NCBI RefSeq assembly: GCF_002920895.1
Contig: NZ_PQVG01000002.1
Location: 248,001 to 312,000, forward strand
DNA from: Flavobacterium alvei
GTDB taxonomy: Bacteria > Bacteroidota > Bacteroidia > Flavobacteriales > Flavobacteriaceae
Direction: 5' to 3'
Length of the DNA stretch: 64,000 nt
Within the stretch, counting starts at the first letter, position 1. Every line of letters begins with the position of its first letter. A program made the translations under genes and the position numbers. Positions 6,769-34,859 of the stretch are shown here, piece by piece. Below the pieces are notes generated by a model. The model made no database searches. It was not told where the DNA came from and saw nothing but the letters and a program-made list of their open reading frames with translations.

Positions 6769-6790
6769 ATACTCTTTTTAATGAAATTTG

Positions 6791-17129: not shown

Positions 17130-19070
17130 TTAAGGTATGATAAATTTTGTTGTATTTGTGCCTTCTTGCGATTCAATTTTACCAATATAAAGACCTGCTG
17201 TTTTAGGTGCTGGAATTGCATTAGCATTAATTGATGATTTTAAAACCAATTTCCCTGTTAAGTCATAAATTGAAATTTTGCTGTTTTCGGGAGCTTTGCT
17301 TATCTTAATAAAACCATTTTCGACAGTCAAAATCATTTTGTTTTCTGAAAACTGATTTACAGATAAACTAGATGCTGGAAGCGCTACTCCGTGAATTTTC
17401 ATATCTGCAAGACAAATTGTTTTACCAGTTGCGGATCCATTATACCAAGGATAAACACGTACTTTTAATGTTTCACCTGCAACAAGTTTAAGTACAGGAA
17501 TCTTTGAAACAGCATTCATAGTATTGGCAACCATACTCTGAAACTCCCCAGCTACATAAGTGGTAACAAAATCGTCTTTTGAATACGAAATACGACAACG
17601 CATGCCGTTACCACCAGCTCCACCAATGTATAGACTAATTAAATCAATATTTAAATCAGTTCCTACGGCTGGTTTAATTCCAAATTGGATATAGCGAGTG
17701 GATACCTCATCAATTTCGCCAGCAGGCCAAGTTCCTCCTTCAATTACATTTCTTTGTGTTTTTCTAGTAGTATCATACCCGCTTCCCGCAGGCCATACTG
17801 TAGAAGTACCATTTGGAGCTGCATAACTCTGAAGAGTCATACCACTATAAGATTGATCAACAACAGTGGCTGGACCAACTAAAACGGGAGTGTTATTTGT
17901 GATTAATGGCCATAAAAGACTAACTTCAGTTCCACCAGTTAGGGTAATAAAATTAGCCGTCAGTGGCACAGTTTTGGTTACTGCTCCATTAGTTACAGTA
18001 AGTGTACCTGTATTAGTTCCACCAACAGATTGGGTTACTGAAATATAAAACTTTGTAAAAGCCAGACTTCCTGTTGTATAATTCATAGTGATTGAAGAAG
18101 CAAAAGTATCTGTTTTATTGGCTGCAATTTGGAAACCATTATCAACCGATAGGGTAAATGTTCCTGAAGCTGGAACCAAGTCAAAACCCGTAATAGTTAC
18201 TTCTTTAGTAAGTGTTTGACCTGTATAAGCATCTCCAAAATCGCAACTGGTTGGATTAATCAAAACATCGGTTGATGTGTTTATGTAAGGAGCAAGAATT
18301 CCTTGTTTGTACATCTCTTGAGCACACAATCTGGCTACTAAAGTTCCGCCTAAAGCAATAGGATGGGTTGAATCTGCAGAAGTAAAAAGTTGAGCTGTAC
18401 AAGCGGCATCGCCATAAGATTCAAAAAGGGTCTTTGTCAAAGCGGTTAAGTCAATAAATTTCACATTCATTTCTGTAGCAACTTCTTGCATTGCAAAACT
18501 GTAGTCATACGTATTATCAGTTGCTGGAACACCAAAATCATCTCCTAAATCGTGTTGTCCTTTGCGAGTTATAGTAGCACCGCTAAAATATTTTCGACAC
18601 ATTGCAGAGGCCAAAAGCGGTGTAGCTCCTAAGGCACGTGTTTCATTTACATATTTTCGTAGATAATCTTTATAAGTTCCTTGTGCAGTTGTACCTCGAT
18701 AATCAGTACCATTTATGGGATTTGCGGGATCGGTTCCTCCGTCAAGTCCACCGTTTTTTTCATCATTATGTGCAAATTGAATCAAGACATAATCCCCAAC
18801 TTTAATTTGCTGTTTTACAGTTGTCCAATAAGGAGCTTCCATATAAAAACTCTTGCTGCTAGCACCACTTTTTGCACGATCATTGACAACAACACCTGAA
18901 TTGAAAAATTGCGGTAACATCATTCCCCAGCCTCTTATATCGGACACATTTGGGTCATATATAGCTTGAGTAGAATCGCCAATGGTATGCAATGTAATTT
19001 GCGCATTCGCAGAAATAATACTGCAAAAAACAAATGCTGTTAAAAATAATTTTGCGACTGTTTTTTTCAT
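17130..19070 (-). CDS. CE12-like rhamnogalacturonan acetylesterase with T9SS domain
   Basis: A 646-residue exported SGNH esterase. The start is ATG at 19070: it gives a proper signal peptide (KKTVAKLFLTAFVFCS to ANAQ) and lies one base after the upstream stop codon, implying translational coupling. Residues ~25-270 form an SGNH hydrolase: block I GDSTQAIYD with the nucleophile Ser, block II near RAKSGASSKSF, block III QFAHND, and the catalytic DxxH in DSTHPIALGG. An Ig-like segment (~275-380) follows, then a beta-sandwich (~400-550) and a type A T9SS sorting domain ending TTKFIIP. CE12 enzymes remove acetyl groups from rhamnogalacturonan I or xylan. The surface location and pectin context support rhamnogalacturonan. 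Confidence 0.88.
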   Translation of the reverse strand: MKKTVAKLFLTAFVFCSIISANAQITLHTIGDSTQAIYDPNVSDIRGWGMMLPQFFNSGVVVNDRAKSGASSKSFYMEAPYWTTVKQQIKVGDYVLIQFAHNDEKNGGLDGGTDPANPINGTDYRGTTAQGTYKDYLRKYVNETRALGATPLLASAMCRKYFSGATITRKGQHDLGDDFGVPATDNTYDYSFAMQEVATEMNVKFIDLTALTKTLFESYGDAACTAQLFTSADSTHPIALGGTLVARLCAQEMYKQGILAPYINTSTDVLINPTSCDFGDAYTGQTLTKEVTITGFDLVPASGTFTLSVDNGFQIAANKTDTFASSITMNYTTGSLAFTKFYISVTQSVGGTNTGTLTVTNGAVTKTVPLTANFITLTGGTEVSLLWPLITNNTPVLVGPATVVDQSYSGMTLQSYAAPNGTSTVWPAGSGYDTTRKTQRNVIEGGTWPAGEIDEVSTRYIQFGIKPAVGTDLNIDLISLYIGGAGGNGMRCRISYSKDDFVTTYVAGEFQSMVANTMNAVSKIPVLKLVAGETLKVRVYPWYNGSATGKTICLADMKIHGVALPASSLSVNQFSENKMILTVENGFIKISKAPENSKISIYDLTGKLVLKSSINANAIPAPKTAGLYIGKIESQEGTNTTKFIIP

Positions 19071-19071
19071 T

Positions 19072-21819
19072 TTAGTTTTTATAAATTTTAGTTGCCCCTT
19101 GTTTTCCATCGATTTTATAACGAACAATATAAACACCTGATTTCAATTCGTTTAAATCAAGTTCCTTTGTTGATTTAGTTTGATACATCTTTTGACCTAA
19201 AAGATTGAAAATTTCTATGCTTTCAAGATTTCCGTTGACTTTTAAACTCCCATTAACTAAAAACACTTTTTCCTCTAAACCTAAAGAAGTACTGTTTACG
19301 GTAATTGAACCTGTGCCTGAAAACAAACCCGGGTGCGTGGTTGCATTATAAACTCCATCGGCAAATTGAACACCATTTAATGTGAATTTTTTAACCGCTA
19401 CTGCAACGTTCAATACCGCCGAAGCCGTTCCGGTTATGTTCATATTTAATTCATCGCCAGCACACTTTGCGTGATTAAAAAGGGCTTTATTAATCGACGC
19501 AAGGCTAATCAATCCTTTTCCGAAAGCATTTTCAACAGTTCCATTGATTTGAGTAGATGCTCCAACGGTTGTTGCGGCTGCTGTTAAATCCCATATTCCA
19601 GTAAAATTACTGTTATCACCACCAAGTTTAACAGTATTAGCAGTTAGTGGGCCATTGCTTCTATTGTTTGATACTTTTACCTTGTAACTACCCGTAAAAG
19701 TTCCAGGCAAATCCATAGTGCTACCTGCCGTATTAGCACTACTCATAAATAATGTAATATCGCCATTCAAAATAACATTTGCCTTCAAATAAAAACCAGT
19801 ACCGCTTGTAGCATAATTAATTGAGGTGCCTTGCTCCATTCTAACAGGGCCTTTACACTCGGCCGAAGTTGAGGTGGTTCTTAATAAGATATATTTACCA
19901 TTACTCAAATACATATCTCCTTTAAAATTTGCCGCAATAGCTTCGATATAATTATCTTTTACGGTTACTTTTTCACCTAATTCTGGCAACAACGCTGGTG
20001 AATAATGAGCCGGATTATCCCAGTTTCTATTAGCAGTTCCTCCAACAAAATTAAATTGGCTTGGTCTTCCAATAATTATTTTTCCTGTACCGCTAATGGT
20101 TGTTGGATTGGTAGTTGCATCATATATTCCTAATGGTTTCAAAACACCATCAACATACCATTCACTAATTGTTATGTCTTGATTAAGTACTAACAATGCC
20201 GCTCCTTCGGTATAAAGTGGGGTTTTGGGCTGAATGGCATTGCTAACGTCTATAGTTAATTTTCCACTGGTTTGAACAGTAATTTTAACTGCATTCCCCA
20301 GAGAATTTGCTATTTTGGCTTGTAAATCTCCATTTGTAATAATTAAATTACCTGTAAAACCTGAATTATTGCCGTTCAATTGACAAATTCCAGTACCTGT
20401 TTTAGTAATTTGATGAACTCCGCTAATTGCTGCAGCAACGCTAAGATTTCCAGTAGTATTGATATTTACTGTTCCTTTAGTTTTAATTGTTCCTGATAAT
20501 GAAGCAGTAGCCGAAGAAGAAATAGTAGCTTGATTTAATGTAAGCAAAGATGCAGTACTATTGGCCGAAACATCTATAGTTGCTCCATTAGTTAAATTCA
20601 AATCTGCTAGAAAACTTCCTCCATTTGCGTCTAGAGTTACGCTACCGTCAACATTGGCTACATTGGCAACTACAGGCACCCCATCTGGGTTCCAATTGTT
20701 TGCTTGAAGCCAACCATTATTAGCCGCTCCTCCATCCCAATTATATACAGTTACTGCTGGAGGAATTGCTGTAGGATCCCAATTGTCTGAACCTTTTAAT
20801 ACTGTTTTAGGTTCATATAAATCCGCTTCAGCTTGATTCAGCATTGCTCTTAGTCCTGCCCAATTGGCTCTTCCACTCATATCGGCACCAGGTCCAGTAT
20901 TCATCCATTCATACAAATGAAGATCAGTACTCGTATCAGAATAATCCATATTCCACTTATCTCCCCAACCTTGTGGATTGATTTGACTAGTCATAGCACA
21001 ATACAACCAAGCTACTTTTGGATAATTATGCCAAGGACGACCCAACCGAATTAGTGCACCCGTACTATTATCTCCAGAACTTGGACTATTAGGATCGTAA
21101 GTTAAATTACATTTATAGAATACAAATCCATAAGTTTGAGCAATTCCAGTAGAAGGGGCTGTAATCCATCCACCTCCATAACTTCTAATTTCACATTCGT
21201 TAAAAACAGCTACTCCACTACCATAAATATAATCTGTACGTCCGGTAATCAAGCAGGATTTAAAATAGGCACGAGAAGTTTCTGCCATCCAAAAATAAAT
21301 AGTGTCCTGATAAGCAGTTATATCACAGTTAACAAATACATTTCGGTCTGACTGAATGGTAAGAGCTTGCGCCTGACCTACATTTCCTGCTGTATTTCTT
21401 ATGGTCATATTTTCAGCTCTAAAATCATTAGCCATTATAGTAAGCGTTCCCGCTGTTCTCACTAAATCTGAATTACTACTCCAAAGTGCCACTTTAGCAT
21501 CTGGACATAAACCATCTCCACCATCATTACAGTTATAAATGTCATACGAAATAATGGTTTCTGTTCTGCTCTCACCAATTAAAGTAATATTGGTTTTGTT
21601 GGCAGGAATGATTAATTTTTCCTTGTCATACAATCCCTTTTTAACATAAATAATAGTAGGTGTACCAGCAGGAACAGCATTAAATGCAGCTTGGATGGAA
21701 GTAAAATCCCCTGTTCCATTAATATCTACCACAATATCTGGAGTGAAACTTTGTGCTTTAGAGTGATTAAATGATAATAATCCTATAATTAAAAGGACTA
21801 AAAAGTTGAGTTTTTTCAT
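19072..21819 (-). CDS. CE8 pectin methylesterase with long T9SS tail
   Basis: A 915-residue exported protein. Signal peptide 1-22. Residues ~25-345 are a right-handed beta-helix pectinesterase: oxyanion Gln in VGQAQALTIQ, general acid Asp in ITAYQDTIYF, nucleophile Asp in GRTDYIYGSG, and the Arg-Trp pair in RLGRPWHNYP. It demethylates homogalacturonan. The remaining ~560 residues are not esterase. They are beta-rich, with two related end motifs, YDATTNPTTISGTGKI and YNATTHPGLFSGTGSI, suggesting duplicated passenger-like modules. A type A T9SS sorting domain ends the protein (FNLLGQKMYQTK to GATKIYKN). Middle gene of the three-gene esterase operon. Confidence 0.92.
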   Translation of the reverse strand: MKKLNFLVLLIIGLLSFNHSKAQSFTPDIVVDINGTGDFTSIQAAFNAVPAGTPTIIYVKKGLYDKEKLIIPANKTNITLIGESRTETIISYDIYNCNDGGDGLCPDAKVALWSSNSDLVRTAGTLTIMANDFRAENMTIRNTAGNVGQAQALTIQSDRNVFVNCDITAYQDTIYFWMAETSRAYFKSCLITGRTDYIYGSGVAVFNECEIRSYGGGWITAPSTGIAQTYGFVFYKCNLTYDPNSPSSGDNSTGALIRLGRPWHNYPKVAWLYCAMTSQINPQGWGDKWNMDYSDTSTDLHLYEWMNTGPGADMSGRANWAGLRAMLNQAEADLYEPKTVLKGSDNWDPTAIPPAVTVYNWDGGAANNGWLQANNWNPDGVPVVANVANVDGSVTLDANGGSFLADLNLTNGATIDVSANSTASLLTLNQATISSSATASLSGTIKTKGTVNINTTGNLSVAAAISGVHQITKTGTGICQLNGNNSGFTGNLIITNGDLQAKIANSLGNAVKITVQTSGKLTIDVSNAIQPKTPLYTEGAALLVLNQDITISEWYVDGVLKPLGIYDATTNPTTISGTGKIIIGRPSQFNFVGGTANRNWDNPAHYSPALLPELGEKVTVKDNYIEAIAANFKGDMYLSNGKYILLRTTSTSAECKGPVRMEQGTSINYATSGTGFYLKANVILNGDITLFMSSANTAGSTMDLPGTFTGSYKVKVSNNRSNGPLTANTVKLGGDNSNFTGIWDLTAAATTVGASTQINGTVENAFGKGLISLASINKALFNHAKCAGDELNMNITGTASAVLNVAVAVKKFTLNGVQFADGVYNATTHPGLFSGTGSITVNSTSLGLEEKVFLVNGSLKVNGNLESIEIFNLLGQKMYQTKSTKELDLNELKSGVYIVRYKIDGKQGATKIYKN

Positions 21820-21862
21820 AGAATGGTTGGTTTGGTTAATTTTTTATTTTGAATTAAATTGG

Positions 21863-22666
21863 TTAATTGAGTTGTAATTTCTGCATGCCTTCAAAGACTA
21901 ATCTAGCAACCTCTTTAGCTCCCTCGGGTTGAAAATGAGTATTATCTTTTTGACCATCAGGATAAGCTTCATATACTCCTGCTGGTAAATTCATAAAGTA
22001 TTTTTCAGTCACATAGTCTTTGCCTTTTTTAGTAAAAAAATCTCTAGATAGTTGGTTTAAGTCTATTAATGGTACTTTCATTTCCTCAGCAACATCTTTA
22101 GGTGCTTTGTCATAGTCGCCGTGTACATCATTCAATACTCCGTTTTCCCATGGATAATTTCGGGCAACAGGTGTTAGAATAATAGGTAAAGCCCCTTTTT
22201 CTCTGGTTTGAGAAACAAACAATCTTAAAAATTCTTTATAGCCTTCAACATCTACATAGCGTTCAGTTTTTTCTTTGGAAGCATCATTATGACCAAATTG
22301 CATAATAACCACATCTCCTTTTTTTAGATTTTCATAAACAGCTCTCCAGCGTCCTTCTTGAAAAAAAGTTCGTGTACTTCTACCTCCACGAGCTCTATCA
22401 TCGACAAAAACACTATTCTTTTTGATGACGTTTTCAATTTTATACAAACTGTCGGAACTCATAAATGGCTGAAAAACTTGTCCCCAACCAGTAACCGGAT
22501 ATCGTACTTTCATATAGTCCTTACCCGGTTCGTAATTCTTACTATAATCTGCCATCGTCGAATCGCCTATTAAATAGACAGTAGTGACCTTCTTTTTTGA
22601 ATTAAATGCACATAATGCAAAAAATAATAGAGCTAAAAGAATACCCCTTTTTGTTTGTAATTTCAT
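21863..22666 (-). CDS. CE12 rhamnogalacturonan acetylesterase
   Basis: A 267-residue single-domain SGNH esterase with N-terminal signal peptide (1-21). All four blocks are visible: nucleophile Ser in LIGDSTMADY, Gly in RARGGRSTRTFF, Asn in MQFGHND, and the Asp/His pair in DNTHFQPEGA. This is the compact CE12 form that deacetylates rhamnogalacturonan in the periplasm. It is the first gene of the esterase operon. The second, T9SS-borne CE12 enzyme encoded downstream suggests de-acetylation both at the cell surface and after import. Confidence 0.93.
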   Translation of the reverse strand: MKLQTKRGILLALLFFALCAFNSKKKVTTVYLIGDSTMADYSKNYEPGKDYMKVRYPVTGWGQVFQPFMSSDSLYKIENVIKKNSVFVDDRARGGRSTRTFFQEGRWRAVYENLKKGDVVIMQFGHNDASKEKTERYVDVEGYKEFLRLFVSQTREKGALPIILTPVARNYPWENGVLNDVHGDYDKAPKDVAEEMKVPLIDLNQLSRDFFTKKGKDYVTEKYFMNLPAGVYEAYPDGQKDNTHFQPEGAKEVARLVFEGMQKLQLN

Positions 22667-23141: not shown

Positions 23142-23855
23142 CTATAAATGAATTTTATTGAAAAAGGGAACTTTGTAACTTTCACTAATAGGCAAACGTC
23201 TATCAGCAATAATTACTTTGTTTTTTTGAATGGATTTAATGTGTTCTAAATTGATAATATAGGAACGATGAATTCTAGAAAATCCTTTTGATGCCAATGC
23301 ATTTTCTAATTTTATCAAACTCATCAAGGTTAATACATATTTGCCATCTGTAGTATAAATTTTGACATAATCTTTCAATCCTTCGACGAATAAAATATCA
23401 GAATAATTGATTTTGACATTTTCATATTCGGCTCTAACAAACATAAAATTATTGGTTTCCTCAGCAATAGTGGCTGGAATTGCAGCAGGTACAACATCTA
23501 TTGGCGAAAAAACATGCTCAGCTCGAACTACAGCTTTTAAAAATCGATTGAACGGAATAGGCTTTATCAAATAATCGACAGCACCAAAATCAAATCCTTC
23601 GACAGCATAATTAGAATAGGCGGTTGTAAAAATAATTAATGGCTTTTTATCAATAGCTTTAATAAAATCGATACCCGAAAAATGAGGCATTTCTATATCC
23701 AAAAAAATCAAATCGACTTCGGTTTTATTGATTACTGAAATAGCATCAATCGCATTGTTAAAAGTGTTTACTAGTTCTAATGAATCTATTTTACTAACGA
23801 AATCTTTGAGTAAATCAACTGCTAATGGTTCGTCATCAATAATTATACATTTCAT
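23142..23855 (-). CDS. LytTR response regulator
   Basis: A 237-residue transcription factor: a receiver domain (1-120) with acidic pocket Asp7/Asp8, phospho-acceptor Asp53 in LIFLDIEMP, Thr in FTTAYS and Lys in LIKPI, then a LytTR DNA-binding domain (~135-237; FVEGLKDYVKIYT, FSRIHRSYIINLEHI). It is the last gene of a five-gene operon, 16 bp after its kinase. It probably controls its own locus and perhaps the divergent DUF4270 operon. LytTR sites are short and degenerate, and I could not place one with confidence. Confidence 0.93.
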   Translation of the reverse strand: MKCIIIDDEPLAVDLLKDFVSKIDSLELVNTFNNAIDAISVINKTEVDLIFLDIEMPHFSGIDFIKAIDKKPLIIFTTAYSNYAVEGFDFGAVDYLIKPIPFNRFLKAVVRAEHVFSPIDVVPAAIPATIAEETNNFMFVRAEYENVKINYSDILFVEGLKDYVKIYTTDGKYVLTLMSLIKLENALASKGFSRIHRSYIINLEHIKSIQKNKVIIADRRLPISESYKVPFFNKIHL

Positions 23856-23871
23856 ATCGAGCTACTTATTT

Positions 23872-24960
23872 TTAATTAATTGATGTTTGAATTTGGTCTA
23901 ATTTGAGATTCAAATGTACCGAATAATTTTGGTCTTTTTGTTCGATACTAAGCGTATGCGAATCGGGATATAATAATTTCAATCGGTTTTTAATATTACT
24001 GATTCCAATGCCTGAATTTTCGGGATCAGGAACATTATTCTCCACTCTATTTTCTACCCAAAAATCTAAAGTATTATCCTCGATTTGAATTTTGATTTTC
24101 ACGCGAGTATTTCCTTTATAATCAGTTCCGTATTTGAATGCGTTTTCTATAAACGAAATCAGCAACAAGGGTTCGATATACTTATTCTTGGTCTCGCCGT
24201 GAATGTTTACGTAGATATTTTCGACATTATTCAACCGTAGTTTTTGTAATTCGATATAATTCTGGATGTAATTGATTTCTTTTTCTAACAAAACCGTCTT
24301 ATTATCCGTTTCATACAGCATATAGCGCATTAATTCAGATAAAGTTACAATGGCTTCGGGAACCAAATCGGATTTTTTGTGAGCCAAAGAATAAATACTA
24401 TTCAAGGTATTGAACAAAAAATGAGGATTGGTTTGTTTTCTCAAATAAATAAGTTCGGCGGTTGTCCGTTGTGACTCCACAAACATTTTATGCTGTTGAT
24501 TATTAAAATACTCCGATAAAATCCTGATAATAGTACTTATAGCTATAATAGAAAGATAGAAAAATGCGGGCATAATTCTAAAAAAAAGAGGCTTGTTTTT
24601 GTGAAATATTTTGTTCTCTAGAATTTCCTTGCCGTTTGCATCAAACATTTTAGGACGAGGAAGATCACGGAATTCTGGCATTAAATAATAGCTTCTAAAA
24701 AACACAAAAAGGGCTATCAAAAAAATTATTATTGCACAAAATTCAACATGTTTTTTTTGCAAAAGCATATTGGGAACAAAATAGTAATAGTTCAAATAAA
24801 AGAGTACGATGCCAGTCGCCCATTGTACAAAAAAATCATTCCCAATCTTAAATGGACTTTCGTAAAACTGCATTAAAGAAGCGAGTATGAAAAAAAACCA
24901 AATAAAAACATGTAAGATTATTTGGTTTTTGGAAATATTTTTGGTCGATACTAAATTCAT
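23872..24960 (-). CDS. LytS/YehU-type sensor histidine kinase
   Basis: A 362-residue membrane kinase with four predicted transmembrane helices (~15-33, 44-64, 72-91, 127-147) and almost no periplasmic loop, so it senses within or near the membrane. The His_kinase domain carries phospho-acceptor His180 in QTNPHFLFNTLNSIY. The HATPase shows the N-box SFIENAFKYG and the G-box GIGISNIKNRL. Its start codon abuts the stop of the DUF4907 gene, and it is followed by the cognate LytTR regulator. Both partners look intact. Confidence 0.93.
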   Translation of the reverse strand: MNLVSTKNISKNQIILHVFIWFFFILASLMQFYESPFKIGNDFFVQWATGIVLFYLNYYYFVPNMLLQKKHVEFCAIIIFLIALFVFFRSYYLMPEFRDLPRPKMFDANGKEILENKIFHKNKPLFFRIMPAFFYLSIIAISTIIRILSEYFNNQQHKMFVESQRTTAELIYLRKQTNPHFLFNTLNSIYSLAHKKSDLVPEAIVTLSELMRYMLYETDNKTVLLEKEINYIQNYIELQKLRLNNVENIYVNIHGETKNKYIEPLLLISFIENAFKYGTDYKGNTRVKIKIQIEDNTLDFWVENRVENNVPDPENSGIGISNIKNRLKLLYPDSHTLSIEQKDQNYSVHLNLKLDQIQTSIN

Positions 24961-25251
24961 TTAAAGAGCTATTTTTAATAAAATTAAATCTTTTTTTGCA
25001 ATCGTGGGAGATAAATTTTGTTTTATTCTATCTCGTACTAAGTTACCCACTTTCATTGCATCAGCTTCGCTCTTGAAACTCATTTGTTTGGAGACCGTTG
25101 GAATCACCGTTTGCCTGATCACAATTTTATCATTTATGGCAATGGTGTATCCCCAACCGTTATTACTTTTGAATGATCTTACGAGATATTGTTCTTTATT
25201 TTCACAAGAAATGAAGAGCAAAAAAAACACAACTATTTTTATGAATTTCAT
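24961..25251 (-). CDS. DUF4907 lipoprotein
   Basis: A 96-residue lipoprotein. ATG at 25251 is the natural start: it gives the lipobox signal FFLLFISC with lipidated Cys16. An upstream extension would run into the Kelch gene and has no signal character. The mature part matches DUF4907: NGWGYTIAINDKIVIRQTVIP, then SEADAMKVGNLVRDRI and a short C-terminal helix. The function is unknown. It lies between a Kelch-propeller lipoprotein gene and a membrane kinase gene, with zero spacing to the latter, so it may be an accessory sensor subunit. Confidence 0.82.
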   Translation of the reverse strand: MKFIKIVVFFLLFISCENKEQYLVRSFKSNNGWGYTIAINDKIVIRQTVIPTVSKQMSFKSEADAMKVGNLVRDRIKQNLSPTIAKKDLILLKIAL

Positions 25252-25268
25252 TTGATTATATATTATTA

Positions 25269-25288
25269 CCCACGATTTAAACCGTGGG
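25269..25288. repeat. Short palindrome between Kelch and DUF4907 genes
   Basis: CCCACG at 25269-25274 pairs with CGTGGG at 25283-25288 across an AT-rich, nearly palindromic centre. There is no T-tract. It could be an mRNA-processing or attenuating hairpin, or a small dispersed repeat. Confidence 0.5.
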
Positions 25289-25303
25289 CAATGGTCAAAA
25301 AAA

Positions 25304-26308
25304 TTAATCATTATCGACTTGCTCGTCATTAGGCAAAAACTCCCATAAATCGTCAAAATAACTGGTTCCTGAACGACCTAGCATAATAAATCCTCTATTG
25401 TTGATGGCCAATCCAACTGCGTCAATTCTTCCAGAAGCTTCTAAAGATGTTTTCTCTGTCCATAAATCTGTTCCTGGATTGTATTGCCAAATTGTTGTTG
25501 AATTATCACCACAAACGACATAACCTAGATTATTCAATACAAAACTGCTTGCATTTGCTCTAAGAATTTGATAATCTTCATTATATTCGTTGTCGTCATC
25601 GTCGTCAGTTGCTTTATCTATATCTCTCTTTTTAGTCCAAACTTCAGTGGCTCCATTAAATTCCCAAAAATCATATTGCAAAACATTATTACTTGTTCCA
25701 GTAGCTAGATAAGCTTTGTCATTAATTACAAAAACAGTTGCATTCCTTCTTTTATTTCCACCAAAACCAGAAGAAAGTGTCCAAGCATTGGTAGTTGGAT
25801 TGTATTGATAAAAATCTTTCAAATAATTTCCGTCATAACCCGTTCCGAAATAAGCTTTATCTGCCACCTGAAAACCAACAGCTCCATATCTTGCTGTACC
25901 AGCAAAATCGGCTTTTTGTGTCCAAGTATTGGTCGTTGGGTCATATTCATAAAAATCCTTAAGACGGCTTGAACCATCATATCCAAGTCCTACATAGCCT
26001 TTGCCACCCAGTTCAAATGCCGAAGCAGCACTTCGTTTCACCCCAATAAAATCGGCTTTTTGTTCCCAATAATCACCATCAGAATTATAAGCCCATAAAT
26101 CGTTTAGGTAAACATCGCCTGTATATCCTGTTGCAACGTAAGCATAATTCCCAATTACAAAACTAGCCGAACTAGATCGAGCTGGCCCATCAAAAGACGA
26201 TTTTTTAATCCAATTCCCTACTAATTCAACAGTGTCATCAGAATTACTGCAACTCACAAAGAATAGTGCTATTAGAATTGTAGCCAATGCCTTTTTTAAT
26301 TTAATCAT
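25304..26308 (-). CDS. Kelch-propeller lipoprotein
   Basis: A 334-residue lipoprotein with lipobox FFVSC (Cys20). The SNSDD after the cysteine resembles the acidic lipoprotein export signal of Flavobacteriia, so surface display is likely. The mature part is a beta-propeller of about six Kelch-type blades, each with a YVATGYTGD/LNDLWAYN or YFGTGYDGN/LKDFYQYNPTTNAWT pattern. An acidic insert around residue 231 (DDDDDNEYNED) sits in one blade. Such propellers bind ligands or proteins; no catalytic site is evident and a galactose-oxidase function is not supported. Second gene of the five-gene operon, 11 bp after the beta-barrel gene. Confidence 0.85.
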   Translation of the reverse strand: MIKLKKALATILIALFFVSCSNSDDTVELVGNWIKKSSFDGPARSSSASFVIGNYAYVATGYTGDVYLNDLWAYNSDGDYWEQKADFIGVKRSAASAFELGGKGYVGLGYDGSSRLKDFYEYDPTTNTWTQKADFAGTARYGAVGFQVADKAYFGTGYDGNYLKDFYQYNPTTNAWTLSSGFGGNKRRNATVFVINDKAYLATGTSNNVLQYDFWEFNGATEVWTKKRDIDKATDDDDDNEYNEDYQILRANASSFVLNNLGYVVCGDNSTTIWQYNPGTDLWTEKTSLEASGRIDAVGLAINNRGFIMLGRSGTSYFDDLWEFLPNDEQVDND

Positions 26309-26319
26309 AATGTATTGTT

Positions 26320-27159
26320 TTAATGTTTATATTTAATTGTTATGCCCAAATTGAACCCGTCTTTCATATTAAAATCGGTTGTAGTATTGTAATCGTTATC
26401 CAACAAAAGATAGTTTCGATTGAAATCATATCCTGCTTTTAAATTCACAAACCAATTGCCTTCCATATTTCTTTCATATTCAAATGAAGTGGTTTGCTGA
26501 AAAAAACTAGATTTCGTACTATTCGAAGAAAAAGTTTTCGAAGCTTCGTCTAAATTGTATACACTTCCGTTAAAAATATTTTTTATATAAAAAGCATTTC
26601 TAGCATTATTCGAATATTTAATTTTTGTTTCTGGAAATCCAATACTGAAATTAATTTTTTCGTTATATTGATAATTATATGTAAAAACCGGCAGTATCAT
26701 TGGTTTTCCAAAAACCACATTTCTGTTTACTCCTAAATTGATGCTAGAATTATTATTCCATTTATAATCAAAATTGAATCCTCCAAGCCAATCAATATCA
26801 TTCCATTCCAAATTGTTTTCACTAGCTACAAAAGGCTCTATTTCAAAATTAAATTGCGTTTTTTCACTCTTTAAATAACTAAAAGTAAACTTATTACTCA
26901 TTTGATTGTATTTGGATAAAGAATTCAAAACATTGGTATTGAAATAATTAATTTCCTTTGAATTAAGCGTAAGTTCATTGGCAATTTTCAAATTAGAATG
27001 CACTATTTTACTATAATCAATTCCAAAATTGAGGTCATTAATCTTTATCGTTTCGGTTGGTTGTGTGTTTACTCCAAAATCTATCGAATACTTATTTTGT
27101 GCTCTGAGATTACAAATTATGAATAAAAACATCCATTTTACTGCTTTACTTATCTTCAT
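26320..27159 (-). CDS. Predicted outer-membrane beta-barrel protein (DUF6268-like)
   Basis: A 279-residue protein with signal peptide (1-20, ending CNLRAQ). It contains repeated alternating hydrophobic/polar strands typical of a 10-14-strand barrel (KFTFSYLKSEKTQFNFEIEP, NFDYKWNNNSSINLGVNRN), ending with GFNLGITIKYKH, whose final aromatic/basic residues suit BAM recognition. It resembles DUF6268-type outer-membrane proteins but the match is weak. It is the first gene of the operon leading to the Kelch and DUF4907 lipoproteins and the LytS/LytTR pair, and is divergent from the DUF4270 operon. Confidence 0.65.
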   Translation of the reverse strand: MKISKAVKWMFLFIICNLRAQNKYSIDFGVNTQPTETIKINDLNFGIDYSKIVHSNLKIANELTLNSKEINYFNTNVLNSLSKYNQMSNKFTFSYLKSEKTQFNFEIEPFVASENNLEWNDIDWLGGFNFDYKWNNNSSINLGVNRNVVFGKPMILPVFTYNYQYNEKINFSIGFPETKIKYSNNARNAFYIKNIFNGSVYNLDEASKTFSSNSTKSSFFQQTTSFEYERNMEGNWFVNLKAGYDFNRNYLLLDNDYNTTTDFNMKDGFNLGITIKYKH

Positions 27160-27366
27160 TATTTTAATATTGGAACAAATCTATTTCGATTTCAAATCAT
27201 AAAAAAAGAATATATATAGACACCCATTTTTGATAGATGAATGGGTAGAAATGGTCGTTAAACACCTAATTTATTGATATAATCCCGTTGTAGTGTTTTA
27301 TCCGAAATTAGTAGATAGAATCAGGCTACTAGTATATATTATAGTTCAAAATACAAGTGCTCCCAT

Positions 27367-27374
27367 TAGATTTG
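27367..27374 (+). promoter_or_regulatory. -7 box of the DUF4270 operon in the divergent region
   Basis: TAGATTTG matches TAnnTTTG, 12 bp before the ATG at 27387. The 227-bp divergent region also holds a small inverted repeat (27222-27228 with 27240-27246), which could be a regulator site shared by both operons. No clear box was seen for the leftward operon. Confidence 0.45.
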
Positions 27375-27386
27375 TGAAAAAAAATC

Positions 27387-28709
27387 ATGAAGTATATTTG
27401 GTTTCTAATCCTTGTAATTGCATTTTTTCCCTCTTGCCAAACTGATAATGCCGAAGGTGATTTTGTGGTGGGTTCTGATTATTTAAGCATCAGTAATAAA
27501 GTAATAATGATTGACACCTTGACCGTAAATGTGTCAACTATAAATCTGGACTCTTTAATTACCTCCAATCAAAGTCGCATTTTAATAGGCAATTATACCG
27601 ATCCAATTCTAGGGCAAGTAAAATCTGAAAGTTATATAAAATTAACACCCGACAATTTCTATATAGGAAGCTCTGAATCGGATACTCAAACGGTAACTTA
27701 TGTTTTTGATTCGATAGCCATGATTTTGAAATATGATCGCTATTATTATGGAGATACTACCAAGACCCAAACAATCAACATTCATCAACTAACCCAAAAG
27801 GTAAAACCCAATACTGATGATACTAATTTTTACAATATTTCATCATTAACCTATGACAGCAAAAGCATTGGCACAAAAACTTTTCATCCCAAACCCATTG
27901 GAAAAGATTCGATAAACATTCAAATAGATGCCAATTTCGGGAAAAACTTGTTCAATAAACTCTACAATAATGAGATAACCGATGCCAATGAATTTGAAGA
28001 TTTATTCAAAGGAATTGTCATCAAACCTTCTACAACTAGTTCGTCAAATATGATAGGATTTAAGACCAGTAGTGTATTGCGACTTTATTACAAAAAAAAC
28101 AATTCCGATTCAGAAAATTCGCTGACAAAAGATTTTTCTCTAACCGATCTTACCAAACAATTCAACAATATTTCATTAGATAGAACAGGAACAATCATTG
28201 AAAATTTACCCGATTCGAAGAATAAATTGTCCAGCGAATTAACTAATAATAATGCCTTTATACAATCGGGAACGGGTCTTGCTTGTCGAATTGATTTTCC
28301 ATTTATTAAACAATTAAAATACATATCCGAGAAAGGAATAATCGTAGATGCAGAATTGGTTATTAAACCCAACAGGTCGAGTATTTCGAACTTATTTCCA
28401 ATAAAAGATTCATTACAAGTGTATGAATGCGATAATTTAAACCGAATTTCCAAAGTATTAACCAATTCTGATGGCTCCCAAAAACTAGCAATTCTCAATA
28501 CAACACCCGATGAATTCAATGAAAATATAGGGTATAAAGTCAATATTGGTGCTTTTTTACACCAAGAAATGCTTAAAACAACTGGTGCCAAATCTAATTT
28601 GATTTTGGCTTTCCCCAATATTTCAAAAGGAGTGAACCGAATTATTTTGGGAAATCAAAAAAACGCCGAGAATAAACTAAAATTAAAAATTTATTATATC
28701 TCTTATTAG
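27387..28709 (+). CDS. DUF4270 lipoprotein
   Basis: A 440-residue lipoprotein with lipobox AFFPSC (Cys17). It shows DUF4270 features: an N-terminal VNVSTINLDSLITSN segment, RILIGNYTDPILGQVKSESY, and a C-terminal beta-rich half ending VNRIILGNQKNAENKLKLKI. DUF4270 proteins are widespread Bacteroidota envelope proteins with no established function, usually annotated as outer-membrane lipoproteins. It is the first gene of a rightward operon, one base before the porin-like gene, and divergent from the LytS/LytTR-Kelch operon. Confidence 0.82.
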   Translation: MKYIWFLILVIAFFPSCQTDNAEGDFVVGSDYLSISNKVIMIDTLTVNVSTINLDSLITSNQSRILIGNYTDPILGQVKSESYIKLTPDNFYIGSSESDTQTVTYVFDSIAMILKYDRYYYGDTTKTQTINIHQLTQKVKPNTDDTNFYNISSLTYDSKSIGTKTFHPKPIGKDSINIQIDANFGKNLFNKLYNNEITDANEFEDLFKGIVIKPSTTSSSNMIGFKTSSVLRLYYKKNNSDSENSLTKDFSLTDLTKQFNNISLDRTGTIIENLPDSKNKLSSELTNNNAFIQSGTGLACRIDFPFIKQLKYISEKGIIVDAELVIKPNRSSISNLFPIKDSLQVYECDNLNRISKVLTNSDGSQKLAILNTTPDEFNENIGYKVNIGAFLHQEMLKTTGAKSNLILAFPNISKGVNRIILGNQKNAENKLKLKIYYISY

Positions 28710-28710
28710 A

Positions 28711-29946
28711 ATGAAAAACAAAATTTGGTTTGTATTATTTTTCGCCAGTCAATCTGTTGGTTTATATGCACAAAGTGTGGCTACATCTCCCTATTCCATT
28801 TACGGATTGGGAAGCTTGTTTGAAACTGACTTTGGTCCAATTTCTGCATTGGGCTCATCAGGAATTGCGTTGCCTACAACATCATTCATCAACAATCTAA
28901 ATCCTGCGTCGTTGGGATTTATTGGCAAACACAGCTTCTTTTTTGACACTGGTCTCAAAGGAACTGAAACCAATTACAAGAGCGAAAACTCTAGCGAAAA
29001 GAGAAATAATTTTCAATTTTCGCATATTGCCATTGCATTTCCTTTGAATTCCAAATCGGGTGTTAGCGCTTCATTAAAACCTTACTCTAGTGCTAGTTAT
29101 GTGATTTCAAATTTTCAATTACCTATAAGTAATAGCAATGAATTTTATAATTTAGACGCTGCTAGCTATGGAGGTCTCAATACTTTTGACCTTTCATACG
29201 GCTATAAAATTCAAAAAGGAATCACTTTTGGACTTACAACTTCCTTTTATTTTGGAAGCATCACAAACAACAAAGATTTTACGATTGCTAATTCTATAAC
29301 CAACATCAATAAAAAGAGTTTTTATAGCGGAATGCGAGTAACATTGGGAAATCAAATCAAAATCGATTCCACTTTCAATATTGGTTTAACACTAAAAATT
29401 CCTTCACAAATTACAGGTTCAAAAACCCAATCGGTCACTACAATAAATGATACCGAAACCCAATATATTGAAGATAATGTTGCTTCTAATGTGGATAATT
29501 ATTATTTGCCTTTTGAATTTGGTGTGGGTTTGAGTAAGTCATTCCATAAAAATTTCAATTTAACCTTAGATTACGAAAAAAGTCTTTGGAAAAACACCAA
29601 TCAAAATAGTGTTTATGGCGAATATAAAAATCAAGACAAATTTGCATTGGGTTTATCCTATTTAAAAAAAGAGCAAAGTTTTTACTATCTAGACAAAATT
29701 CGTTACTACTCAGGCTTCAATTATGACACAGGTTTTTTGTCTATAAATAACAAAAATGTAAACAATATGCGTTTTAGCCTTGGAGTTGGAATACCAATAG
29801 AATCGACAAAATCGGCCTTGAATATTAATTATTCTTATGGTATAAAAGGAACTGTAGGTAACCAATTAGTAAAGGAAAATTATCATATGATTGGTATTAA
29901 TTTAAGCTTAGAAGCCATTTGGTTTGTCAAACGCAAATACGATTAA
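28711..29946 (+). CDS. OMPP1/FadL-like outer-membrane protein
   Basis: A 411-residue beta-barrel with signal peptide 1-20 (ending GLYAQ). The N-terminus has the SPYSIYGLGSLFETDFGPIS segment and an INNLNPASLGFIGKHSFFFD strand, resembling the PorV/OMPP1/FadL superfamily hatch and first strands. About 14 amphipathic strands follow, ending MIGINLSLEAIWFVKRKY. FadL-type proteins carry hydrophobic substrates, whereas PorV-like members shuttle surface proteins. No choice can be made here. Second gene of the DUF4270 operon; the degenerate ABC ATPase starts 32 bp later. Confidence 0.72.
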   Translation: MKNKIWFVLFFASQSVGLYAQSVATSPYSIYGLGSLFETDFGPISALGSSGIALPTTSFINNLNPASLGFIGKHSFFFDTGLKGTETNYKSENSSEKRNNFQFSHIAIAFPLNSKSGVSASLKPYSSASYVISNFQLPISNSNEFYNLDAASYGGLNTFDLSYGYKIQKGITFGLTTSFYFGSITNNKDFTIANSITNINKKSFYSGMRVTLGNQIKIDSTFNIGLTLKIPSQITGSKTQSVTTINDTETQYIEDNVASNVDNYYLPFEFGVGLSKSFHKNFNLTLDYEKSLWKNTNQNSVYGEYKNQDKFALGLSYLKKEQSFYYLDKIRYYSGFNYDTGFLSINNKNVNNMRFSLGVGIPIESTKSALNINYSYGIKGTVGNQLVKENYHMIGINLSLEAIWFVKRKYD

Positions 29947-29978
29947 AACGTTTTAAATCATTCTAATAAGTATATAAA

Positions 29979-30656
29979 ATGGTAGCAAAATTTGAAAACA
30001 TCAACAAAACTTTCTGTACTAGTGCCGGAACATTTAATTGGGATGAAGAAACTTGTATTAATCTCAACAAAGGCGAAATTTTATTAATTACTGGAAAATC
30101 AGAATATTCAAAAAAAACATTACTCACTTTGATGGGATGCCTTATTAATCCTAATGAAGGCATTCTGGAAATCAACGGAAAAGACATCCATCTTTCCTGT
30201 TATGAAGAAATGGTTTTAATAAAATCACAAACCATTGGCTTTGTATTTCACCAACACAATTTATTAGAATCTATAAACACCGAAGAAAATGTAGCCTATC
30301 CGCTAAAATTTCAAAATTCAAAATCAGACGAAATCAGACAACGAACTACAGAAGCCCTAAAAATGGTCGAAATGTATGAGCAACGAAAAAAAATGCCCAA
30401 ACAATTATCGAAATTAGAAAAACAAAAAACTCTAATAGCTAGAGCTTTGGTTATCAATCCGAAAATTATCGTTTGTGATAGACCTACCGCCTTCTTGGAT
30501 AGACAAGCTGCCAAGCTCATTATGGAAAAACTGAAAGAATTGGCTAAAAAAGAAAAAACCATCGTCATTTTAAATCACGACTCCAGATTCAATGAATACG
30601 CCAATCGAGCCGTTGAAGTGAAAAACGGAATCGTGAATGAACTTATTTTGGTGTAA
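29979..30656 (+). CDS. Degenerate LolD/MacB-family ABC ATPase homologue
   Basis: A 225-residue protein with the fold of the LolD/MacB/FtsE ATPases, including FVFHQHNLLESINTEENVAYPL (Q-loop Gln92). The catalytic motifs are damaged. Walker A reads GKSEYSKKT (39-47), keeping the Lys but losing two glycines. The signature reads LSKLEKQ instead of LSGGQxQ. Walker B is IIVCDRPT, with Arg168 in place of the catalytic Glu. The H-loop His200 is kept. Nucleotide binding is doubtful and hydrolysis unlikely. No permease gene is adjacent. It is the third gene of the operon with DUF4270 and the porin-like protein. The frame is intact, so the protein is probably still used, possibly as a structural pseudo-ATPase. 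Confidence 0.83.
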   Translation: MVAKFENINKTFCTSAGTFNWDEETCINLNKGEILLITGKSEYSKKTLLTLMGCLINPNEGILEINGKDIHLSCYEEMVLIKSQTIGFVFHQHNLLESINTEENVAYPLKFQNSKSDEIRQRTTEALKMVEMYEQRKKMPKQLSKLEKQKTLIARALVINPKIIVCDRPTAFLDRQAAKLIMEKLKELAKKEKTIVILNHDSRFNEYANRAVEVKNGIVNELILV

Positions 30657-30666
30657 TGGTCTAAAA

Positions 30667-30804
30667 ATGGGACACAGATGACACGGATTTAGCCGATTCA
30701 AACGGATTTAAAATGCGTTTAAGCTGCAACTTTCAGATTATTGTTTGTATAAATTTCAAAAAAAACAGCAATATTCAGCGAAATCCGCGTCATCTGTGTT
30801 CCAT
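30667..30804. repeat. Long-range inverted repeat (ACACAGATGAC type)
   Basis: 27-nt arms at 30667-30693 and 30778-30804 pair with three mismatches, enclosing 84 bp. It lies between the convergent ABC-like gene and the GH95 gene. Arm words such as ACACAGATGACACGGATTT belong to a family of intergenic repeats seen across Flavobacteria; a related word (ACACAGAG) occurs at 44947. Confidence 0.8.
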
Positions 30805-30819
30805 TTAATCAACAAATCG

Positions 30820-33231
30820 TTACCAAATTATCTCCATCTTCTGTCCTTTTTTCAAAGTGATTGTCTTGTTTTTTGCACCAGAAATAAGGATTGTTTTTCC
30901 TCCATTTTTAGAAAAAACCGTCACTTTTTTTAAGGTTTTGGCATTCCATTCCATTGCAATTTCAAATCCACCACGGGCACAAATTCCTTTCACAGAACCG
31001 CTTTCCCAAGCATCGGGCAAAGCTGGAAGCAACCTGATTTCGGTTTCATTAGACTGAACCAACATTTCGGCAACGGCAGCCGATCCGCCAAAATTTCCAT
31101 CAATTTGAAACGGTGGATGTGCATCGAATAAATTGGGATAGGTTCCTCCTCCTCGTCTTGGTTTTTCGGTTTTCTTTCCATCAGGATCAACATAACGAAG
31201 CAATTCACGAAACATTTTATAAGAACGATTGCCGTCCCAAAGTCTTGCCCAAAGATTGATGCGCCAACCTTTAGACCAACCTGTAGTTTCGTCGCCTTTT
31301 ATTTCCAAAGTTTGCCTACAAGCATTCGCCAATTCAGGTGTTTTTAATAAATTAATATGATCGCCTGGAAAAAGTCCGAACAACTGCGATTGATGACGAT
31401 GTTTAGAATCTTTGTCATTCCAATCGAAATACCATTCTTGTAAATTGCCTTTTTTTCCAATTTGATAGGAATGCAATTTTGAAACTGTGGTTTCAAGTTT
31501 AGTTCTAAATTCAACATCCATATTCAACACTTTCGAAGCTTTAATGGTTTTGTCAAAACATTCACGAATCATCGCCAAATCAGCCGTTCCTCCATAAATT
31601 GTGGCACCAACAACTCCATCGGGAGTAACGTATTGATTTTCGGGAGAAGTTGATGGCGAAGTGATTAAATTACCATTTTTATCTTCGACCAACCATTTCA
31701 AACAAAATTGAGCAGCGCCACGCATAATTTGGTAACCCTCGTTTTTGAGGTAATTTTTGTCTTGTGTAAACACATAATGTTCCCAAATATGAGTGCTCAA
31801 CCAAGCTCCGCCCATATTCCAACACGCCCACATCGGTTCTTCTTTTCCAAATTGACCAACGGGATTGGTCATCGCCCAAATATCAGAATTATGCGAAGCC
31901 GACCAACCTTCATCCACTCCGTAAAATGTCTTGGCTGAAATTTTTCCAGTAACCGAAAGATTTTTGATAAAACTCAAAAGTGGCAAATGCATTTCCGAAA
32001 GATTGGTGTTTTCGGCCAACCAATAATTCTCTTCGAGATTGATGTTGGTTGTGTAATTAGAACTCCAAGGCGGATTGAGATACGGATTCCAAAGTCCTTG
32101 CAAATTGGCTGGAACGCCCAAAGTTCTGGAACTGCTAATAAGCAAATAACGCCCGAAATTGAAATATAAAACTTCCAGATTCTTGTCCTCTTTTCCTTCG
32201 GAATAGCGCAACAAACGTTCGTCGGTTGGCAAATTCGGAGCTTCGGTTTTTCCTAAATTTAAACTAACCCGATTGTAGAACTTTTGATAATCAGCAATGT
32301 GAGTTTGTTTTAATTTATCGAATGATTTAGAAAAAGCTTTATTCAAATTGTCCAAGGCAATGGCTTTGTCATTTAATCCTTGAGTTGCAGGATTTTTGTC
32401 GAAACCATTAAAACTCGTGGCGATAGAAACATAAATCAAGGCTTCGGTGGCGTTTTTCAATCCCAAACTAGAACTGGAACTTGTGATGATTCCATCCGTA
32501 TTTTTAATTTTTATCAAACTGGTGAATCGTGTTCCTCTCTCTTTTTCTAAAAGAAAAGCTGGAACAACTTCATAACCTTGATTTTCGTGAATGGGTGCAG
32601 AACCATTCATTGAAAGCACATTATCCTTAACCTCAGTTTTAAATTGTAAAAGACTATTCGAATTGATGTCAAAATTCAATGCTCCTTTTTTGCTGCTTGT
32701 CAGTTTGATAATCATAATTTTATCTGAAGCAGAAACAAAGTATTCACGAGTGAATTTCACTCCATCCACTTCATAACTCACTTTAGAAATGGCTTTGGAA
32801 ATATCCAATTCCCTGTAATAATTGATAGCTTTTCCGTTGTGATGGTTGTTTATTTCCATCGTGCCCAATGGCGAATAAGATTCTGAATTTTTACCTTGAA
32901 TCTTTTTGTTCAATTCTTCGGCGAGTTTGTAGTTTTCGTTTTTCAATGCTTCGCGAATAGCTGGCAAATTTTTATAAGCTTCAGGACTCATATTAGCATT
33001 GACAGGCTCTCCCGACCAAAGTGTGATATCATTCAAATAAATTTTATCTGAATTGACTCCTCCAAAAACGGTTCCTCCTATTTTACCATTTCCCAACACC
33101 AAGCTTTCCTCAAAAAATTCTGCTGGTTGTTTGTACCACAAAATATGGTCAGATTGAGCAGCTATTTTTCCGAAAAAGAAAGAAAACAGCAAACTTAAAA
33201 GTAGCTTGTTGAATAAGTTTGATTGCATCAT
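30820..33231 (-). CDS. GH95 alpha-L-fucosidase or alpha-L-galactosidase
   Basis: An 803-residue exported enzyme, signal peptide ~1-25. GH95 inverting enzymes have an N-terminal beta-sandwich ([19 protein letters not shown]), an (alpha/alpha)6 barrel and a C-terminal sandwich. Expected active-site parts are visible: the Asn pair in [10 protein letters not shown], general acid Glu484 in STHIWEHYV, and Asp711 in QIDGNFGG. It would remove terminal alpha-1,2-L-fucose (or L-galactose) from xyloglucan or other plant glycans. It starts 2 bp after the GH43 gene and is the last gene of the five-gene hemicellulase operon. Confidence 0.93.
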
Positions 33232-33233
33232 TT

Positions 33234-34733
33234 TTATTCTGTTTTATAAACAAAATTCTTAAATATCACTGAACCTTCGCCAACAGCTAAAAGCCCTATT
33301 TTGAGACTCATAAAACCACTTAGTACATTATGGTTAAATGAACTTACTTCGGCAGAATTTTCGATTTTTAACCAATCCTTTCCATAAAAACTATAAAACA
33401 TATTTACAACTTGTTGCTTTTTTTCTAAGCGTAAAAATAAATGTCGCTTATTCACTTCTTTTTCTGTTGGGAATTGCCATACTCTAAGAATTGCCATAAT
33501 ATTTTCTTTATCAAAAGCAATTCCAGTATATGCTTTAGCATCATAGAAAAGAACTAGTCCGGCCGATGCATCACCTTCTATTTCAATTTCAACATCTGCA
33601 GTATAGGAATGGTCTGAAGGAGTACATAATAAAGGAGAACTTTCAGCAATACTTTTACCTTTTCCCTTAATTTTTATTCCATTTGAAGAAAATGTAGCCC
33701 TTTGAGAATCATATTCATCATAAAACTGCCATTGCTTATTAAGCACCGTTCCTGTAAAAGTATCCGAAAGATTGAAATTACTTTTTATGGATTGACCAGC
33801 TGGTTTTTTTATTTCATCATCGGTTTTAATGCCTTCTTTCATTTTGAACCAGCCATCCGTTGTCCATTCAATAGGCTGCAGAAGTGTTTGACGTCCCATA
33901 TTGTAATGACCATTTTCATAACCGTGAAAAATCATCCACCAATTTCCTTTTACATCATCAATTATGGAGGCATGCCCTTTTGACCACCATTTTTCAGAAC
34001 TATTTTTTGTTCTAATGATAGGATTATTAGGAGCGTTTTCCCAAGGTCCAAAAGGCGATTTTGATCGAGCTGAAATTACCATATGACTTGTTGCCGGCCC
34101 CGAAGTGCCTCCTTCGGCAACAGTAAGATAATAATATTCTCCTTTTTTAATCATCTTGGGACCTTCCAAACAAAAACATTCTATAGTCCAATCTCTTGGT
34201 ATTTTCCAACCATCATAACTATGCTTTATATCACCAATTGCGGACAAACCATCTTTGGACAATGGAAGATAACCTCCATTGCTAAAATAAAGGAATCGAT
34301 TACCCTTTTCATCAACAAAATGTCCTGGATCAATAGCATCAATCTTCAACTCAATAGGATCGCTCCATGGCCCATTTATATTATCTGCCCAAACGACATA
34401 ATTGGTGTTATTAGCAGGGAAATAGATATAAAATTTGTTATTATATTTAACCAAATCTGGAGCCCAGACAGAACCAATATTTTTATGTAACGCATGCGTA
34501 ACTGATTTCCAATTCACTAAATCTTTAGAGGTCCAAATTAACAGTCCTGGATAATAATTAAATGAGGAATGCACAATATAGTAATCTTCTCCATCCCTAA
34601 TGATAGAAGGATCTGGATAATCTCCAGCAAAGATTGGATTTTTATACATTTCTGCGTTTTGCTGGCTTTTTTGTTGCTGTGCGTTGATGGCAAGCGACAT
34701 TGAAAATACAAATAGCAAAATTGTTTTTTTCAT
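33234..34733 (-). CDS. GH43 beta-xylosidase/alpha-L-arabinofuranosidase
   Basis: A 499-residue exported enzyme, signal peptide 1-18. The five-bladed propeller (~30-320) has the GH43 triad: general base Asp41 in GDYPDPSII, pKa-modulating Asp135 in DAIDPGHF, and general acid Glu190 in CLEGPKM. A C-terminal beta-sandwich follows (~330-499; [27 protein letters not shown]). Specificity for xylose or arabinose cannot be told from sequence. Fourth gene of the operon; 126 bp separate it from the esterase gene upstream, including an AT-rich hairpin. Confidence 0.93.
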
Positions 34734-34827
34734 AATTGTTTCTTTTACAGTTTTATGGATATACTCGAATTATTATTCATCCAAAAGACTTAAAAGATTT
34801 TAAAAACCTATTAAGTCTAATCGAATA

Positions 34828-34855: not shown

Positions 34856-34859
34856 CAAA

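Follow-up and report, generated by a model that had tools for sequence, protein, structure and literature searches.

The closest described relatives of the system considered here are the β-barrel assembly machinery (BAM) complexes of Bacteroidota, namely that of Flavobacterium johnsoniae, which contains BamA, D, G, H, M, and P (PMC12611786; PDB ID: 9n2d), and that of Bacteroides thetaiotaomicron and Porphyromonas gingivalis, which contains BamA, D, and G–K (PMC12578637). According to these papers, paralogs named BamG2 and BamH2 exist in F. johnsoniae, Bt1785 and Bt1786 of B. thetaiotaomicron are BamG2 and BamH2 and form a putative operon, the BamG paralogs are phylogenetically distinct, and the type-2 pair is dispensable in both model species. 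Here, we analyzed a 64,000-nt stretch of Flavobacterium alvei (contig NZ_PQVG01000002.1, positions 248,001–312,000 of the forward strand; hereafter the window), in which a divergent locus encodes paralogs of BamH and BamG on one side and a LytTR two-component pair, a Kelch-propeller lipoprotein, a DUF4907 lipoprotein, and a DUF6268 barrel on the other. We consider it probable that this locus specifies a two-component-regulated alternative (type-2) BAM canopy able to displace the canonical pair. The bolder proposal, that such a second switchable canopy (BamG2, BamH2, and Kelch with their own two-component system) replaced the essential BamG/BamH several times in evolution, is put forward more tentatively, its chances in our judgment falling just short of even.

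Compared with the F. johnsoniae complex, the pair in the window lies in a separate locus together with the two-component genes, Kelch, DUF4907, and DUF6268. F. johnsoniae BamG2/BamH2 are likened to this pair by name; the main text of PMC12611786 does not mention the words operon, two-component, or transcription, while its gene map in Extended Data Fig. 3a, outside our literature scope, may show some of the neighbors. Bt1785/86 are similarly likened by name. The BamI subunit of the Bacteroides complex is a six-bladed propeller lipoprotein that contacts BamH (PMC12578637), whereas the Kelch protein of the window, also with six motifs, is a different propeller that is encoded beside BamH2. With regard to control, LytTR regulators bind direct repeats, mostly of 9 bp with 12 bp between them, and the systems described in PMC6193735 share with the window a 21-bp period just upstream of the promoter. 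However, the boxes in the window differ from the ACC-type repeats tabulated there, and those systems are not two-component pairs, while the presumed target in the window is an envelope assembly module. Altogether, the existence and dispensability of BamG2/BamH2 were already known, and the locus, the candidate switch, the putative Kelch partner, and the replacement seem to be new, with no account of these four in the open-licence full text searched (supplements and figures being outside this scope).

The rightward barrel, BamG2, matched the NCBIfam BamG model with 373 bits (curated cut-off of 250), although this model does not tell type 2 from canonical BamG, and no Pfam match was found at E ≤ 0.1. 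In a PDB search, BamG chains were the best hits, with 238 bits against 49 bits for FadL-type channels, and the weaker matches included the TodX and TbuX channels. A preliminary description of the window, made from sequence, had called this protein a FadL/OMPP1-like barrel, which we replace with BamG paralog. In fact, BamG2 aligns over nearly its full length with the solved BamG (9n2d_B, E 5e-30), and within this sequence alignment both the N-terminal SPYS-YG segment and the C-terminal WFVK-K motif of BamG are conserved. In the F. johnsoniae structure, the BamG N-tail contacts BamA and the C-tail contacts BamD (PMC12611786). A second, canonical BamG (448 bits) is encoded in the F. alvei genome outside the window. 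It sits between genes for proteins of 244 and 184 aa, which we take to be coaX and lptC; bamG follows coaX at the canonical site, and the copy in the window is not found there.

Just upstream of BamG2, the lipoprotein BamH2 scored 110.6 bits with Pfam DUF4270 (cut-off of 27). The preliminary description had left its role unassigned, yet DUF4270 is the BamH family, as the other F. alvei DUF4270 protein matches the solved Bam H chain (9n2d_C, E 1e-127) and scores 567 bits on the NCBIfam model for canonical BamH (BamH_fj). The window protein gave no match to BamH_fj at E ≤ 0.1 and is a BamH paralog, not canonical BamH. Since F. alvei encodes canonical BamG and BamH separately, those in the window are paralogs. 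As its sequence profile found nothing in the PDB at E ≤ 0.01, the structure of BamH2 was modeled, and although the model is of modest quality (predicted local distance difference test score, pLDDT, of 61), its only two PDB matches at E ≤ 0.001 were 9n2d_C (E 1.6e-11) and 9hjm_G (E 9e-11), at template modeling (TM) scores of 0.38–0.40. They come from the BAM structures of F. johnsoniae and P. gingivalis, respectively. By direct reading, mature BamH2 begins with CQTDNAE and so carries the surface-lipoprotein signal, which by rule has at least two acidic residues among the first six after the cysteine (PMC12578637). Moreover, between the window and locus L079 (loci are cited by L numbers and genomes by G numbers, the window holding the F. 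alvei locus itself), the ratio of nonsynonymous to synonymous changes (dN/dS) was 0.07 for BamH2 and 0.10 for BamG2, as estimated by simple counting with synonymous sites near saturation. Judged from sequence and model, BamG2 and BamH2 look like working BAM parts.

As to displacement, we searched for BamG in 71 DUF4907-carrying genomes (F. alvei, 21 from the phylum, and 49 from the class). BamG2 is present at the Kelch locus in 19 of these. Four of the 19 (G014, G126, G354, and G369) gave no other BamG match, and in each of them the sole DUF4270 match adjoins BamG2. These four genomes are rated 99–100% complete and represent three families, and G014 is a single contig. A missed canonical BamG is unlikely, since BamG proteins outside the locus in the other genomes (F. 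alvei and the set of 21) scored 194–460 bits. In all three genomes where the canonical site could be checked (G014, G369, and G354), the coaX neighborhood is present and its downstream genes are in order, with bamG missing; these stretches have no masked base and yielded no bamG remnant at E ≤ 1. CoaX was not found in G126, so the site is not checkable there. Two more genomes (G365 and G398) have their only DUF4270 at the Kelch locus and a BamG elsewhere, but the DUF4270 model is weaker at their distance, and they were not relied on. The best explanation is that the type-2 pair can displace the canonical pair, which in some lineages is gone. Mapping the type-2 label onto a tree of 44 BamG proteins takes two changes, with two long canonical rows placed apart; once these two are removed, the 26 type-2 BamG proteins make up one side of a branch (support of 100/95). 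As the type-2 proteins form a separate branch, the window BamG2 is not a recent copy of the BamG of its own genome.

The preliminary description had proposed a neighborhood search, and here the arrangement recurs far beyond chance. Within the Flavobacteriaceae, DUF4907 is found in 14 of 120 genomes, F. alvei included, and in all 15 loci fetched (the 13 other DUF4907 loci plus two with a second DUF4270 but no DUF4907), the regulator, kinase, and Kelch genes are divergent from BamH2–BamG2. At the level of the phylum, 24 of 296 genomes carry DUF4907, and among the 21 that were new, the neighbors of DUF4907 include Kelch in 21, BamH2 in 18, and BamG2 in 16. A scan of named genomes with the Kelch protein, in which the best 80 of 555 confirmed relatives were kept, gave 79 titled Flavobacterium or [Flexibacter] and one titled Flavobacteriaceae. 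Of 106 Flavobacteriaceae loci, among which 101 Kelch proteins are distinct, 104 contain the full set of regulator, kinase, Kelch, BamH2, and BamG2, the exceptions (L080 and L119) being contigs of 3–4 kb. The regulator stands beside Kelch in 105 of the 106 (L119 is cut off), DUF4907 is absent from two, and the DUF6268 barrel was not found in 15, one of which is a cut contig. The gene models used were built from loci of the same set, and they locate relatives rather than serve as independent family tests.

Kelch together with BamH2–BamG2 is found in further families too, where the locus is flanked by genes for a class II tRNA synthetase, an asparaginase, a pyruvate:ferredoxin oxidoreductase, an SNF2 helicase, a GTP1/OBG GTPase, or an AcrB-type pump; these are unrelated genes and point to no pathway. 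Two-component genes of the same kind occur at the locus in Flavobacteriaceae, L058, and L068, with less similar ones near L060, L063, L197, and L198 and none beside the other distant loci. In the class, DUF4907 is present in 82 of 395 genomes. From these, 49 that had not been examined before and are at least 97% complete were sampled (contig ends may hide a few neighbors), and BamG adjoins DUF4907 in two and DUF4270 does so in four. Among the 40 of these loci that were fetched, Kelch lies beside DUF4907 on the same strand in 20 and not in the other 20, and only 2 of the 20 with Kelch carry BamG2. Based on these counts, Kelch–DUF4907 is a wider pair that also exists without BamG2, and BamG2/BamH2 accompany it in part of the phylum only. 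Three tandem Kelch genes stand beside DUF4907, with neither BamG2 nor BamH2, in L062, L209, L214, L218, L221, and L222, and again in L228, L231, L232, L234, and L236. Bacteroides ihuae, taken as a control, was matched by the BamG, DUF4270, and DUF4907 models, the positions of the matches not being shown.

The two arms of the locus are separated by a 227-bp region (27160–27386), whose length the preliminary description had given correctly, and a conserved LytTR-like repeat array lies within it in Flavobacterium. Three boxes 21 bp apart precede the BamH2 promoter. Of 89 Flavobacterium regions, 80 have all 11 scored positions of the operator pattern, and every shuffled region stayed below 10, although the positions were chosen partly on the same related sequences and the shuffles were single-base. 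In a less tuned count, TRTAG pairs at a 21-bp spacing occur in 58 of 83 distinct Flavobacterium regions versus 0.4 in shuffles. A second favored spacing of TRTAG, at 30 bp, is seen in 42 of the 83 and is unexplained. The Bacteroidota −7 consensus fits TAnnTTTG-type elements that face both ways. On the BamH2 side, this element keeps the same 24-bp distance to the third box in all 28 Flavobacterium regions that have it inside the examined stretch. The left-facing one is separated by 16–17 bp from the gene on its side in 74 of the 83 distinct Flavobacterium regions. Such direct repeats, at a period of about 21 bp in front of the target promoter, suggest a candidate LytTR-type operator, in Flavobacterium only. 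It is the only zero-mismatch match in the F. alvei genome. With up to three mismatches, a reversed control pattern gave at least as many hits as the operator (9 against 5), and as the control does as well once mismatches are allowed, no wider regulon is claimed.

Two published leads on regulation were considered and set aside. The F. johnsoniae LytTR regulator/kinase pair FJOH_RS09515/RS09520, a target of mutation in every one of five lines that evolved alongside Burkholderia (PMC10197871), is not supported as being this locus: the changes reported in the regulator (C44T and G46A) presuppose C and G at the respective bases, but 88 of 88 tested Flavobacterium regulators have T at base 44 counted from the usual start. 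L153 would fit if an upstream TTG were its start, so the exclusion is conditional on the annotated start rather than absolute. The low-iron induction of BT1785-86 (PMC10434189) is given as 3.6 and was not used, the 0.437 in the adjacent column being read as the p value.

We infer complex formation of BamG2 and BamH2 with BamA, a place for Kelch as a subunit, control of the locus by the adjacent regulator, and the existence of an inducing signal and of clients. Specifically, the kinase would respond to an envelope condition, whereupon the regulator would fill the 21-bp repeat array and switch on both arms, BamH2–BamG2 and Kelch–DUF4907, the latter joined in some lineages by a DUF6268 barrel. 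The BamA barrel would be shared, with BamG2 taking the site of BamG on it and BamH2 docking on BamG2, and the Kelch propeller would be added as a surface subunit to complete the canopy, possibly at the position held by BamM in Flavobacterium or by the propeller BamI in Bacteroides. F. johnsoniae BamH2 is without the hairpin that binds BamM (PMC12611786), and there would therefore be room for another partner. This would yield a second kind of canopy that serves another condition or another set of clients.

Several observations speak against this mechanism. F. johnsoniae BamG2/BamH2 are not appreciably expressed in rich medium and can be deleted, and a BamH suppressor in this species did not act via BamH2 (PMC12611786). 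No BamG2/H2 was detected in B. thetaiotaomicron, and there a bamH bamH2 double deletion was no worse than that of bamH, which in the view of the authors argues against an alternative complex able to rescue (PMC12578637). An inducing condition that was not met might explain the silence and the absent phenotype in these two species as well as the result of the double deletion. Moreover, two of the four type-2-only loci (L059 and L061) have no two-component genes next to them, many genomes carry Kelch–DUF4907 without BamG2, and the operator array is not recognizable in 20 regions of other genera (the best being L026, with 10 of 11 positions), which is why the operator is claimed for Flavobacterium only.

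Dispensability in the two model species, along with the wider occurrence of Kelch–DUF4907 (20 of 40 class loci, 2 with BamG2), would also be consistent with a dedicated assembly line, in which BamG2/BamH2 fold or display Kelch, DUF4907, and DUF6268 as clients whose job lies elsewhere, such as in glycan binding. We regard this as rather unlikely, given that the sole BamG/BamH of the type-2-only genomes must presumably serve all clients, and that the DUF6268 barrel is missing from many loci. The FadL fold of BamG and the weaker matches to TodX and TbuX might instead suggest uptake of a nutrient or signal, with BamG2 as a FadL-like channel that admits a hydrophobic compound, surface binding by BamH2 and Kelch, the kinase as sensor, and no involvement of BAM; lipoprotein–barrel pairs with a local sensor are indeed common in the phylum. 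Yet the closest solved relatives of BamG2 are BamG chains (238 versus 49 bits), it retains the termini through which BamG touches BamA and BamD, its partner is a BamH paralog, and it is the only BamG in some genomes, all of which makes a transport role improbable. Least of all do we expect a dispensable relic, that is, old duplicates retained by chance beside unrelated regulators. The lack of a phenotype reported upon deletion and the scant expression in rich medium would suit this, but the low dN/dS between the window and L079 (0.07 for BamH2 and 0.10 for BamG2), the gene order kept across genera, and the existence of type-2-only genomes count against it. A regulated alternative canopy remains the reading we prefer.

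Table 1. Features of the F. alvei locus, with coordinates as positions in the window.
Feature	Coordinates	Strand	Details
LytTR response regulator	23142..23855	-	237 aa; Pfam Response_reg + LytTR
LytS-type histidine kinase	23872..24960	-	362 aa; Pfam His_kinase; position conserved across loci
DUF4907 lipoprotein	24961..25251	-	96 aa; Pfam DUF4907, 78 bits
Kelch-propeller lipoprotein	25304..26308	-	334 aa; Pfam Kelch repeats
DUF6268 barrel, optional locus member	26320..27159	-	279 aa; Pfam, 52 bits
-7 element, TAnnTTTG-type, leftward-facing	27176..27183	-	direct reading
Candidate LytTR operator	27289..27342	+	boxes RTAG, RTAG, GTATATRTTAT; 21-bp period
-7 element, TAnnTTTG-type, before BamH2	27367..27374	+	direct reading; 24 bp past third box
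BamH2, DUF4270 lipoprotein, BamH paralog	27387..28709	+	440 aa; Pfam DUF4270 + PDB matches of model
BamG2, paralog of BAM barrel BamG	28711..29946	+	411 aa; NCBIfam BamG + PDB 9n2d_B
Degenerate LolD/MacB-like ABC ATPase, lineage-specific add-on	29979..30656	+	225 aa; Pfam ABC_tran

The individual genes are listed in Table 1. As previously described, all eight open reading frames (ORFs) are intact, and the start codon of the kinase (24958–24960, minus strand) directly follows the DUF4907 stop; the domain labels were also mostly right in terms of Pfam (Response_reg/LytTR, His_kinase, DUF4907, Kelch, DUF4270 at 111 bits, and ABC_tran). The receiver–LytTR regulator adjoins a His_kinase membrane protein, which identifies a LytTR two-component system in the window, and hydropathy places about 3–4 hydrophobic segments within the first 150 residues of the kinase. 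At L036, two more, less similar LytTR/kinase pairs flank the locus (5056–6869 and 14874–16646), and in three Flavobacterium loci an extra ORF of 236–237 aa with no model match lies between the kinase and regulator (L070:9986–10699, L076:6291–7001, and L077:10148–10858). In the Kelch protein, the lipid cysteine is invariant in 16 of 16 aligned relatives, and reading of the alignment gives six motifs and an acidic stretch past this cysteine. The lipoprotein label of DUF4907 holds for the window, where the signal is present, though not for many relatives, which show a plain membrane anchor instead. Its model has three strands and two helices and found no PDB match at E ≤ 0.001, so the fold gives no function.

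While the preliminary description viewed the eight genes as one unit, our data support an envelope locus that is passed on as a unit, without the ABC ATPase and with the DUF6268 barrel as an optional member. Degeneracy of the ATPase had been recognized correctly, as direct reading shows its catalytic motifs to be lost (GKSEYSKKT as Walker A, CDRPT for the usual DEPT, and LSKLEKQ for LSGGQ); it lacks an intact Walker A, signature, and Walker B glutamate, and the L079 copy is degenerate too. An orthologue-level match exists in only 2 of 117 loci (the window and L079), which rules it out as a locus component. The dN/dS of this gene between these two loci is 0.11. At L063, a different, weakly similar ABC ATPase (119 bits) lies nearby, beyond a GatC gene. 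No permease gene adjoins the degenerate ATPase in the window. Between it and the next gene, a 32-nt inverted repeat (30665–30806; arms 88% complementary and 78 nt apart) resembles, at a guess, a repetitive extragenic palindromic (REP)-type element. Carbohydrate-active genes flank the locus on both sides (17130–22666 and 30820–36809), and a GH95 gene also adjoins the Kelch–BamH2 locus of an unrelated family (L067:10501–12978); this shared neighborhood is possibly a coincidence.

In 2025, two structures established BamG and BamH as core parts of a novel type of BAM, in a phylum that includes major bacteria of the gut and the environment, and these studies left BamG2/BamH2 without a condition, partner, or role. 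The locus described here offers testable predictions for each, in the form of a two-component switch, a Kelch surface partner, and organisms that have the type-2 pair only. If our interpretation is true, a cell would be able to remodel the exterior of its outer-membrane assembly machine as needed, and an essential pair of a core machine would be swappable for a paralogous one, meaning that BAM composition would be both regulated and exchangeable.

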